From Sphingomonas bacterium (GTDB taxonomy: Bacteria; Pseudomonadota; Alphaproteobacteria; Sphingomonadales; Sphingomonadaceae), in assembly GCF_903643065.1 (NCBI RefSeq), contig NZ_CAHJWX010000179.1, positions 1 to 5,291 on the forward strand: a DNA stretch of 5,291 nucleotides. Reading direction: 5' to 3'. Each line of letters starts with the position of its first letter. The stretch's first letter is position 1. Of the stretch, positions 3,161 to 5,291 are shown piece after piece. Both the position numbers and the translations under genes were made by a program. Under the pieces are notes generated by a model that was given only the letters and a program-made list of their open reading frames with translations, did no database searches and was not told the DNA's origin.

Positions 3161-3817
3161 ATGCAGGTGACGGCGGAACGGATCGGGCGAGCGGCGGTGT
3201 TGGCCGCGGCCTTGGGTGTATCGGCCTGCGCGGGACGCGGCGAGCTGGACTCGAGCGGGACGGGCATCGCCACCGTGCGCTCCGCCTGCCCCAGCGTGGG
3301 CGTGCCGGCGGGCACCGGCGACGTGACGCTGTTCGATCCCGCCGGCCGCCGCGACGCGGACGCGCTGGACCTGTCGGCGACCATGACCAACGTCCGCTCG
3401 ACCTGCACCGACCAGGGCGACCAGATCCTGACCGGCGTGACCTTCGACGTGCAGGCGCGGCGCCAGCGCACGGGGGCGCCCCGCGACGTGACGCTGCCCT
3501 TCTTCATCGCGGTGGTGCGCGGCGGCAGCGCGGTGGTGGCCAAGCGCGTGAGCCAGGTCACGCTCCATTTCGACGCGGGCAGCACCCGCGCGCAGGGGCC
3601 CGGCACCGCGTCGACGCTGGTGACGCGTACGGCGGCGACGCTGCCCGACGCGATCCGCCGCCAGATCACCCGCAAGCGCAAGGCGGGCGACGAGGACGCC
3701 GCCGTCGACCCGCTCACCCAGCCGGAGGTCCGCGCCGCCGTGCTGCGCACGAGCTTCGAGGCGCTGGTGGGGTTCCAGCTGACGGATGAGCAGTTGAAGT
3801 ACAACGCTACGCGTTAA
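3161..3817 (+). CDS. Predicted lipoprotein of unknown function
   Basis: A 218-residue protein with a lipoprotein signal peptide: charged start (ERIGR), hydrophobic core AAVLAAALG and lipobox VSAC with C23 as the lipidated residue. The residue after C23 is Ala, so export to the outer membrane is likely. The mature part contains two matching segments, TVRSACPS (C43) and NVRSTCTD (C82), whose cysteines could form a disulfide. A beta-rich middle follows (DQILTGVTFDVQA and PFFIAVVRGGSAVVAKRV), then a charged stretch RRQITRKRKAGDED near 164-177 and an amphipathic C-terminus. I recognise no named domain; the type seems familiar from sphingomonads but its role is unknown. ATG 3161 is the only start giving a correct signal peptide, although its Shine-Dalgarno is poor (GGGCGG). 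The frame stays open far upstream antisense to ispH, a high-GC artefact. The stop codon touches the first repeat of the following cassette. Confidence 0.8.
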   Translation: MQVTAERIGRAAVLAAALGVSACAGRGELDSSGTGIATVRSACPSVGVPAGTGDVTLFDPAGRRDADALDLSATMTNVRSTCTDQGDQILTGVTFDVQARRQRTGAPRDVTLPFFIAVVRGGSAVVAKRVSQVTLHFDAGSTRAQGPGTASTLVTRTAATLPDAIRRQITRKRKAGDEDAAVDPLTQPEVRAAVLRTSFEALVGFQLTDEQLKYNATR

Positions 3818-3849
3818 GGGAGTAGGGGGTAGGAGATAGGGAGTAGGGG
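3818..3849 (+). repeat. Left array of 7-nt repeats (GGGAGTA), slightly degenerate
   Basis: Four heptamers in a row: GGGAGTA (3818-3824), GGGGGTA (3825-3831), GGAGATA (3832-3838) and GGGAGTA (3839-3845), then GGGG. The first base follows the TAA stop of the lipoprotein gene directly. The array is the inverted counterpart of the right array at 4228-4257, with 26 of 30 positions matching when aligned in inverted orientation. It also contains the only Shine-Dalgarno candidate for the TTG start at 3853 (GGAG at 3840-3843, nine bases before it). Confidence 0.85.
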
Positions 3850-3852
3850 TCG

Positions 3853-4227
3853 TTGGAGCCGATCCGCAGCTATCGCGATCTGATCGTATGGCAGCGTAGC
3901 TTGGAGCTCGCCGAGCGAGTGTACCAGTTCACTCGTGCTTACCCGCGCGATGAGCTGTTTGGGTTGACGTCACAGACACGCCGCGCGGCGACGTCGGTCG
4001 TCGCCAACATCGCCGAGGGCCATGGCCGGGGGACGCGCGGGGCTTATGCCGGCTTCGTCAGGATAGCCCGAGGCTCCTTGTGCGAGCTGGAGACGCATTT
4101 GTTACTGGCTGCTCGGATCGGCCTCGGCGATCCTCTACAGATTGACCAACTGCTGACCGACACGGATGAGATCGGTCGCATGCTCCGCGCCCTGATCGCC
4201 CGCTTGCGCATACCGGAAGCCCGGTAA
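3853..4227 (+). CDS. Four-helix-bundle protein, 23S rRNA intervening-sequence / Avd-like family
   Basis: A 124-residue all-alpha cytoplasmic protein of the TIGR02436 / PF05635 family. The signature is complete: SYRDLIVWQRS at 6-16, DELFGLTSQTRRAATS at 33-48, the conserved loop NIAEGHGRG at 52-60, and ARGSLCELETHL at 72-83. The length is typical. Family members are encoded inside 23S rRNA intervening sequences of bacteria such as Leptospira and Coxiella, and the Avd accessory protein of diversity-generating retroelements shares the fold, a basic multimer that binds nucleic acid. The role of stand-alone copies like this one is unknown. TTG 3853 is the only possible start, because an in-frame TAG lies at 3844-3846 and no other start precedes the first conserved motif. 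The Shine-Dalgarno lies in the left repeat array. The gene may be co-transcribed with the lipoprotein gene 35 bases upstream and converges on priA. No reverse transcriptase or rRNA is in the window. Confidence 0.9.
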   Translation: MEPIRSYRDLIVWQRSLELAERVYQFTRAYPRDELFGLTSQTRRAATSVVANIAEGHGRGTRGAYAGFVRIARGSLCELETHLLLAARIGLGDPLQIDQLLTDTDEIGRMLRALIARLRIPEAR

Positions 4228-4257
4228 CCTACTCCCTACTCCCTACTCCCTACTCCC
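4228..4257 (-). repeat. Right array: four perfect GGGAGTA units, G-quadruplex motif on the minus strand
   Basis: On the plus strand this reads CC followed by four perfect TACTCCC units (4230-4257). On the minus strand it is GGG-AGTA repeated four times, which meets the canonical G-quadruplex rule of four G3 runs with loops of four. It fills the whole 30-bp gap between the stop of the four-helix-bundle gene and that of priA. In the priA transcript the G-rich strand would come immediately after the stop codon. It could slow polymerase, stabilise the 3' end or act as a boundary between the convergent genes. Its perfection, compared with the degenerate left array, suggests recent expansion or homogenisation. 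Confidence 0.85.
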
Positions 4258-5291
4258 TCACAAGAAACTATACGGATCCACATCCACCGTGACCCGCACC
4301 TTCGCGGGCCAGTCGAGCGCGCCGAGCCAGTCGCGGATCACGTCCTGGACGTCGAGCGCGCGCCGGGCGTGGACGAGGAGGCGGTAGCGGTGGCGGCCGC
4401 GCAGCATCGCGAGCGGGGCGGGGGCGGGGCCATAGCTCGCCATGCCCTCCACCGCCGGCGCCGCGCGGCCGACCAGCCGCGCGGTCTCCAGCGCGCTCGC
4501 CTGGTCCTCCGACGAGACCACGATGGCGGCGTAGCGGCCGAACGGTGGCGCCCCGGCTTCGCGCCGCGACTCGGTCTCCGCCGCGTAGAAGGCGTCCGCG
4601 TCGCCGGTGACCAGCGCGCGCATCACCGCCGCGCCGGGGCTGTGCGTCTGCAGGAAGACGCGGCCGGGCTTCTCCCCGCGCCCGGCGCGGCCGGCGGCCT
4701 GGCGGATCTGCTGAAAGGTGCGCTCGGCGGCGCGCAGGTCGCCGCCCGCCAGCCCCAGATCGGCGTCGACGCAGCCGACCAGCGTCAGGTTGGGGAAATG
4801 ATAGCCCTTGGTGACGAGCTGCGTCCCCACCACCACGTCGATGTCGCCCGCGTCCATCCGCCCGACGAACTCCGCCGCCTTGGCCGGCGACCAGATCGTG
4901 TCCGACGTGACCACCGCCGTCTTCGCCGCGGGGAACAGCGCCGCCACCTCGTCGGCGATGCGCTCGACGCCGGGGCCGCAGGCGACCAGGCTGTCCTCCG
5001 CCCGGCATTCGGGGCAGGCATTGGGGCGAGGCTCGGCATGGCCGCAATGGTGGCAGGCGAGGCGACGCGTCAGCCGGTGCTCCACCATCCAGGCCGTGCA
5101 GTTCGGGCATTGGAAGCGATGCCCGCAGGCACGGCACAGCGTCAGCGGCGCATAGCCGCGGCGGTTGAGGAACAGCAGCACCTGCTCGCGCGCGTCCAGC
5201 GTGTCGCGCATCGCGGCGACGAGCGGCGGGGCGAGCCAGCGGCCGCGCTCCGGCGGGGTGGCGATGAGGTCGATCGGCTCGATCGCGGGCA
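4258..5291 (-). CDS. priA: Primosomal replication-restart helicase PriA, C-terminal part
   Basis: PriA is a DEAH-type 3'-to-5' DNA helicase that recognises abandoned replication forks and loads the replisome through PriB/DnaT-type partners and DnaC-type loaders. The window holds the last 343 or so codons; the 3'-DNA-binding domain, winged helix and Walker A/B lobe are off the right edge. Numbered from Met at 5211, the zinc-binding insertion is intact with eight cysteines in four CxxC pairs: C26/C29, C35/C38, C53/C56 and C66/C69. Before it comes LLFLNRRGYAPL (12-23), highly characteristic of PriA. The second helicase lobe shows VVVGTQLVTKGYHFPNL (126-142) and motif VI QAAGRAGR (171-178). The C-terminal domain ends in DVDPYSFL, normal for alphaproteobacteria, so the repeat beside the stop has not truncated it. 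The frame continues upstream of 5211 to the window edge without a stop. Confidence 0.96.
   Translation of the reverse strand, partial: PAIEPIDLIATPPERGRWLAPPLVAAMRDTLDAREQVLLFLNRRGYAPLTLCRACGHRFQCPNCTAWMVEHRLTRRLACHHCGHAEPRPNACPECRAEDSLVACGPGVERIADEVAALFPAAKTAVVTSDTIWSPAKAAEFVGRMDAGDIDVVVGTQLVTKGYHFPNLTLVGCVDADLGLAGGDLRAAERTFQQIRQAAGRAGRGEKPGRVFLQTHSPGAAVMRALVTGDADAFYAAETESRREAGAPPFGRYAAIVVSSEDQASALETARLVGRAAPAVEGMASYGPAPAPLAMLRGRHRYRLLVHARRALDVQDVIRDWLGALDWPAKVRVTVDVDPYSFL

Follow-up and report, generated by a model that had tools for sequence, protein, structure and literature searches.

The intervening sequence (IVS) of Coxiella, in which an S23p gene lies within a 28-bp stem with heptameric repeats upstream of the gene, is excised by RNase III, and its S23p is believed not to be produced in vivo (PMC4990558). 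The same source reports S23 proteins as lacking a known function and recalls an older idea that intervening elements of 23S rRNA were once mobile (PMC4990558). Insertions in rRNA have also been surveyed (PMC2672173), and a likeness between PF05635 and Avd has been noted (PMC10053308). Heptanucleotide repeats form a second, separately described subject. For Xanthomonas (GGGAATC) and Nostoc (GGGGA(T/C)T), Rehm et al. (2015) reported a four-unit preference and inverted pairs, observed that GGGAATC forms G4 in vitro, proposed G-quadruplexes, and found 83% of the Xanthomonas repeats to be common to two species (PMC4692102), which implies that movement is rare at best. TAACTGA heptamers of Beggiatoaceae, cyanobacteria and Bacteroidetes are given as of unknown origin (PMC4679880), and the excess of heptanucleotide repeats with its four-unit preference has been ascribed to slippage or to G-quadruplexes (PMC4679880, PMC4692102). 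The terms ‘S23’ and ‘four helix’ are absent from the text of Rehm et al. (PMC4692102), and a search of the open-access literature, with subscription papers and preprints outside its scope, found no paper linking heptamer arrays outside rRNA to S23 genes. Here we describe an S23 gene of a Sphingomonas bacterium that stands between inverted heptamer arrays, and compare it with its relatives across bacteria.

Architecture of the Sphingomonas cassette

The window, that is, the whole stretch of 5,291 nt that was analysed, belongs to a 2.63-Mb assembly of 486 contigs and 72% completeness. An earlier note, made from the letters of the window alone, had described inverted heptamer arrays around one gene, and direct reading, an inverted-repeat search and TRF all confirmed them (Table 1). 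The two arms are inverted copies of each other (87% complementary, 380 nt apart), so that the cassette including both arms measures 442 bp and has terminal inverted repeats in the manner of an insertion sequence or transposon. On the left, TRF returned 3817-3849 (period 7, 73% match), where the units from 3818 read GGGAGTA, GGGGGTA, GGAGATA and GGGAGTA; on the right, it returned 4228-4258 (period 7, 100% match), an arm of four perfect heptamers plus 3 nt (TACTCCC four times at 4230-4257). Two of the left units had been called degenerate, and their spacers do differ, but the AGG anchors, read from the sequence at 3817, 3824, 3831, 3838 and 3845, are all kept (in anchor register, AGG-GAGT-AGG-GGGT-AGG-AGAT-AGG-GAGT-AGG). 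The cassette is flush with the stop codons of both neighbours, as had been stated, with the correction that each 31-nt arm starts on the last base (A) of the adjoining stop codon and not on the base after it.

Table 1 Features of the window around the S23 gene
Feature	Position	Strand	Basis or remark
Left neighbour, lipoprotein-like ORF, 218 aa	3161..3817	+	ORF reading; stop TAA 3815-3817
Left arm, 31 nt, five AGG anchors, 4-nt spacers	3817..3847	+	Sequence, inverted repeat, TRF
S23 / 23S-rRNA-IVP family four-helix-bundle gene, 124 aa, TTG start	3853..4227	+	TIGR02436, PF05635
Right arm, 31 nt, five minus-strand AGG anchors	4228..4258	-	Sequence, inverted repeat, TRF
Right neighbour, priA C-terminal part	4258..5291	-	Stop TGA 4258-4260; runs off window

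The S23 gene scored 116.4 bits with TIGR02436 (cut-off 24) and 119.6 bits with PF05635 (cut-off 33.8), which upholds the family named in the earlier note; the Avd (20.1 bits, cut-off 80) and bAvd (22.5 bits, cut-off 40) models matched below threshold. The predicted monomer has four helices (mean pLDDT 95); its best structural match is 2gsc (XCC0516; query TM 0.84-0.89), and 2gsc and 2rld rank closest, followed by Avd (4dwl, 8ub7-8ube; query TM-score 0.73-0.76). S23 is the sole gene of the cassette, which thus contains no transposase, and the Pfam scan of six ORFs of the window gave no match to a reverse transcriptase. The right neighbour was identified by the TIGR00595, PRK05580, PriA_C and Zn_ribbon_PriA models; the left neighbour has no match in Pfam or NCBIfam, has homologues in 148/151 genomes of the genus, and is presumably a lipoprotein gene, from a lipobox read by eye.

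Because the cassette lies between the lipoprotein-like gene and priA, outside rRNA, it is not an IVS, but it is built like one: the transcript of the window is predicted to fold with its arms paired (-219.9 kcal/mol, z -6.1), giving a stem around the ORF. Only a few bases separate the fifth AGG anchor of the left arm from the TTG start (region 3840-3855), and by its position this anchor could be a Shine-Dalgarno sequence that is hidden when the arms pair. No target-site duplication was seen at the window. Among the 30 best genus loci, and within the stretch examined, priA adjoins the lipoprotein gene only at the window's own locus; the other 29 have no priA match there, so that the lipoprotein-priA junction is not comparable between relatives and yields no empty site for the window. 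Rfam at gathering score gave no match in the window, in six further loci of its genome or in five cyanobacterial plasmid loci.

Period-7 arms flank S23 genes across bacteria

Relatives were gathered by protein alone, and the resulting loci are partly related. They came from 21/387 genomes of the class, 62/397 of the phylum and 64/149 of one gammaproteobacterial-type family (that of G731), together with the best 80 of 554 relatives on GTDB contigs (many phyla) and 35 IMG/VR loci. In a first round, 144/146 loci were testable (L124 and L133 were left out for a short flank), and period 7 or 14 was best in at least one flank of 69/78 named loci, 30/35 IMG/VR loci and 26/31 loci from the class, the genus and the window's own genome; of those, 62, 25 and 20, respectively, had an inverted match above all in-locus control windows. 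In a second round over the phylum (L311 left out as short, partial and weak matches excluded), period 7 or 14 was best upstream in 46/62 and downstream in 45/62. Pooling gave 235 loci, without L342, L343 and L370, the last being the same place as L316. Here period 7 exceeded the 99th percentile of shuffles upstream in 175 and downstream in 158 loci, where about two were expected for each, and a period-7 array was present on both sides of 130 loci and on either side of 203, 73 of which have one arm only. With proteins clustered at 60% identity, the counts were 101 upstream, 94 downstream, 75 both and 120 either of 142. Other periods reached 2 to 18 flanks of 235 (period 8, 14 and 13; period 9, 13 and 18), and the 32 loci without a period-7 array include some with period 8 and some weak matches without arrays (L098-L100). 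The plan of a gene between inverted heptamers, which the earlier note had suggested looking for beside TIGR02436-type genes elsewhere, is thus widespread among S23 loci, more than chance would give.

Several individual loci deserve mention. Period-8 arrays stand beside the S23 genes of L107, L115, L119, L150, L158, L195, L289, L306 and L308. A 1.5-Mb alphaproteobacterial genome (G462) has eleven PF05635 matches (loci L092, L104-L108, L337-L341), several of them with arrays of different words. S23 relatives are encoded on 35 IMG/VR contigs (L189-L223), in which host DNA is possible, and had no match in 50,697 phage records. A genome with two further S23 genes (G693) has two equal-scoring S23 copies in LSU rRNA (L330, L331).

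The likeness to the gene-in-stem plan of 23S rRNA IVSs, drawn in the earlier note, was borne out within rRNA itself, since five S23 loci in LSU rRNA have period-7 arms of the same kind; S23-bearing IVSs and intergenic cassettes therefore look like one class. Left arms favour gene ends: the left arm lies at the end of the upstream ORF (-12..+4) in 58/127 loci, compared with 79/1280 control positions, and right arms lie at an ORF end in 43/124, a figure that has no control set.

The arms are also of a preferred size. Arm length peaks at 29-32 nt (80/195 arms of the 60%-clustered set, with 15 at 22-25 nt and 11 at 36-39 nt), which is the size that five anchors would give. Upstream chains of identical 3-mers at a 7-nt pitch had 4 members in 44, 5 in 44, 6 in 9 and more in 3 of 144 loci, a sharp drop after five, while in shuffled flanks two chains reached 4 and none was longer. 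Each of the two relatives with a solved structure, 2gsc and 2rld, consists of five chains, and by analogy with them we infer one anchor per S23 subunit. The window's right arm, by reading, has four GGG tracts, but 179/222 arms of the class have fewer than four, and 130/222 have no GGG at all and keep the same length peak (57/130 at 29-32 nt), which rules out G-quadruplexes as the general reason for four units.

Repeat word and protein vary together

Across the 130 two-arm loci, left and right arm match within a locus at 6.21 of 7 positions compared with 3.95 for random pairs, agreement being 6 or 7 of 7 in 112 of them, and variation falls in the same columns on both sides (r 0.47 vs -0.08, p 9e-14). 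The words themselves are diverse, with 94 distinct left-arm consensus words among these loci, or 76 when only the 109 loci that contain an exact tandem pair are counted. Word identity falls with protein identity, from 7.0 (protein identity ≥0.9) through 6.7, 5.9, 4.8 and 4.3 to 4.05 (<0.4), so that repeat type and protein clade do co-vary, as the earlier note had proposed to test. The order of variant units in the two arms, compared with shuffled units, was above in 52 and below in 42 of 106 loci (p 0.10); this shows no register beyond chance and does not support a strict stem constraint.

One junction recurs with different words. NuoD lies downstream in 18 loci (for example, L085, L087, L090, L109, L114 and L129), with nuoC upstream by reading; all 15 of the loci with both arms called agree at 6 or 7 of 7, and about six words occur there (GGCAGTA, GTGAGTR, GCGARTA, GGCAATA, GTGAATG and GCGAATG). 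Such variety implies either an exchange of whole cassettes or a joint change of the two arms; the junction may be a hot spot, or it may hold one old insertion whose words have changed. In several of these loci the nuoC stop falls within the first heptamer (CAG TGA GTA), a possible reason why stop codons and arms are flush.

Gene-less arrays follow the gene

The genome of the window has a second S23 gene (near 1477-1857 of contig C182; G000:C182, L001), flanked by inverted GGCAATA-type arrays, a word different from that of the window. Ten gene-less inverted pairs of the two cassette words occur in the same genome around short spacers, of GGGAGYA on C27, C76, C233 and C239 and of GGCAATA on C125, C153, C161, C183, C334 and C379; those on C161 and C183 were called by coordinates only, and some arms of gene-less pairs are imperfect. 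Spacers between gene-less arms vary from site to site, and single gene-less arrays are also present. In the genus, the S23 gene is rare (2/151 genomes: G000, which is the window's, and G144), and arrays of three GGNARYA units occur in 5/151 (34 matches in G000, 8 in G144, 7 in G003, 1 in G010 and 1 in G045), G003 having heptamer arrays without an S23 gene. By reading, gene-less inverted arrays occupy one accD-like junction in G000, G144 and G003 (L021, L055, L069), with arm-to-arm spacers that differ among the three; the upstream gene has a Carboxyl_trans match, and the downstream neighbour, for which Pfam gave no match, is presumably folC, by eye only.

A broader comparison used the 149 genomes of the gammaproteobacterial-type family, one of whose S23 proteins (L316) we take by eye to resemble XCC0516. 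GGGAWTC arrays of three units occurred in 47/64 gene-bearing genomes, being absent in the other 17, versus 12/85 genomes without the gene (p 1e-13); a within-genus permutation over the 20 genera with both kinds gave p 5e-5, the smallest value that this test can give. The word adjoining the gene was taken from a single place in each of 30 genomes, some of the 64 gene-bearing genomes having several copies: the median genome count of GGGAWTC was 88 where this word stands beside the gene (8 places) and 4.5 where another word does (22 places; p 0.001). In 24 hand-chosen genomes whose cassettes were known beforehand, two-unit GGCAGTA arrays occurred in 6/6 genomes that have a GGCAGTA cassette, always including copies away from it, and in 1/18 others, and two-unit GTGAGTA arrays in 3/4 genomes with a GTGAGTA cassette versus 3/20 others. 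Heptamers elsewhere in the genome without the gene, an outcome that the earlier note had held to be fatal to the cassette idea, therefore do occur; however, since ten sites are inverted pairs of the words of both cassettes, and since arrays are found mainly in gene-bearing genomes, gene-less derivatives fit better than an unrelated repeat.

Insertion of cassettes in relatives

S23 relatives are encoded by 24 plasmid records, mostly cyanobacterial, among which three pairs of occupied and empty sites were found. In one, Trichormus variabilis and Scytonema NIES-4073 are occupied and Nostoc linckia, Microchaete and Nostoc carneum are empty, and the flanks are about 98% identical. The cassette is bordered by GTAATAA on its left and by GTAATTAA on its right, whereas the empty site has one GTAATTAA, so that GTAAT(T)AA is a clear direct repeat in this pair. 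The same site holds a gene-less element with similar words in Brasilonema and a truncated cassette in Nostoc C052, whose plasmid pC052_A carries an internally deleted cassette, and in Aulosira and Nostoc plasmids likeness to the Trichormus cassette stops within about 20 nt of the borders. In the second pair, Nostoc edaphicum against Calothrix NIES-4105 (85%), the short repeat TTAG lies on both sides; in the third, Calothrix brevissima against three plasmids (about 90%), there is no border repeat. Elements of 170-202 bp on four plasmids have ends that match the cassette and a conserved non-coding interior. These gene-less elements (L274 401-582, L275 401-585, L276 401-570 and L277 401-602) share an interior with apparent hairpins and have no Rfam match. 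Over 116 loci, border direct repeats are weak (mean longest shared word 3.99 vs 3.82), with repeats of at least 8 nt in three loci against 0.42 expected (P 0.01). The small, transposase-less mobile unit envisaged in the earlier note thus finds its empty sites among plasmid relatives and none at the window, and these sequence comparisons support mobility of S23 cassettes in relatives, not at the window.

Explanation and alternatives

The reading that we favour, with a probability of roughly 0.6, is that the S23 cassette is a small insertion element without a transposase, whose ends are likely bound by the S23 protein, presumably a pentamer, with one subunit per anchor. The S23 protein would bind the heptamer arms, and this binding would keep the anchors; the protein would also help to move both gene-bearing and gene-less copies. 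Cutting and joining would fall to a different cellular enzyme, possibly a reverse transcriptase, which is suggested because the S23 fold is the Avd fold. Insertion at gene ends, with an array that is itself able to supply a stop codon, would be harmless to the neighbours. The evidence is strongest for arm statistics and co-variation, and good for insertion in relatives.

An alternative interpretation is that S23 is a regulator that binds heptamer operators or RNA sites, its own arms serving autoregulation and the gene-less arrays being targets kept by host selection. This would account for the co-variation of word and protein, for gene-less arrays in gene-bearing genomes, for placement at gene ends and for the stable positions of arrays in Xanthomonas (PMC4692102), but we consider it unlikely because occupied and empty sites and the internally deleted copy point to insertion, the gene is rare and patchy in the genus, and gene-less arms enclose a different spacer at each site. 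Less probable still is an RNA element, whose arms would serve as a long RNA stem like that of 23S rRNA IVSs, whose protein would work on the transcript once excised or folded, and which would insert via RNA. The predicted pairing of the window's arms, the five LSU rRNA loci with like arms, a fold shared with Avd, which belongs to a retroelement ribonucleoprotein, and the RNase III excision described for Coxiella (PMC4990558) are consistent with it; however, constrained pairing predicts variant units in register between arms, which were not found, and many array-bearing loci have one arm only while single gene-less arrays exist.

We give very little credence to a general origin of the arrays as G-quadruplex or slippage repeats, with the gene beside them by chance. 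This reading can draw on the four-unit preference, the inverted pairs and the in vitro G4 of GGGAATC (PMC4692102), and on the commonness of G-rich words, including those of the window. Against it, arms without GGG keep the length peak, the loci were gathered by protein alone and their in-locus control windows have no such signal, and the word tracks protein identity and gene presence.

The insertion-element reading can be extended, more tentatively and with some doubt on our side, to a bacteria-wide selfish class in which a pentameric ring would read five anchors per end, word and protein would co-evolve, gene-less copies would be served in trans, S23-bearing rRNA IVSs and much of the heptanucleotide excess would be products, and an Avd-like route would borrow a reverse transcriptase or repair enzyme. 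If the link holds, two orphans explain each other, namely the S23 proteins and the heptanucleotide-repeat excess, and the mobile-element reading would explain the origin of many puzzling heptamer repeats of bacterial genomes. That a five-fold ring reads the five anchors of an arm would be a simple and testable rule, for which the 130 two-arm loci with their dozens of words form a natural specificity set.

Comparison with known systems

Dependence on a protein gene located elsewhere in the same genome is assumed for REPINs, which are short repeats without a gene of their own; the RAYT proteins are tyrosine transposases, and the REP sequences are palindromic. The gene-less heptamer arrays resemble them in being short repeats that may be tied to a distant protein gene, but the S23 protein matches no transposase and its cassette ends in arrays of heptamers. 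The four-helix fold is common to the window protein and Avd of diversity-generating retroelements, although the Avd model scores far below its cut-off.

TAACTGA repeats, as far as the source consulted describes them, are likewise lineage-specific, patchy, intergenic heptamer arrays, but are mostly direct and upstream of genes (PMC4679880). The heptamers of Xanthomonas and Nostoc come closer, with a 7-nt unit, a four-unit preference, inverted pairs and positions near gene ends; the account given there is one of G-quadruplexes, whereas the arrays described here are linked to S23 and include words without GGG (PMC4692102). The Coxiella IVS has an S23 gene in a stem of inverted ends, heptamers upstream and suspected mobility in common with the window cassette, which differs in adjoining protein genes and not rRNA (PMC4990558). 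Two-sided heptamer arms as a rule, co-variation of word and protein, and gene-less relatives are found here and do not figure in the available part of the Coxiella account (PMC4990558). The heptamer-flanked S23 gene is thus a widespread architecture that we did not find described, and the S23-bearing IVS is the same plan in another place.
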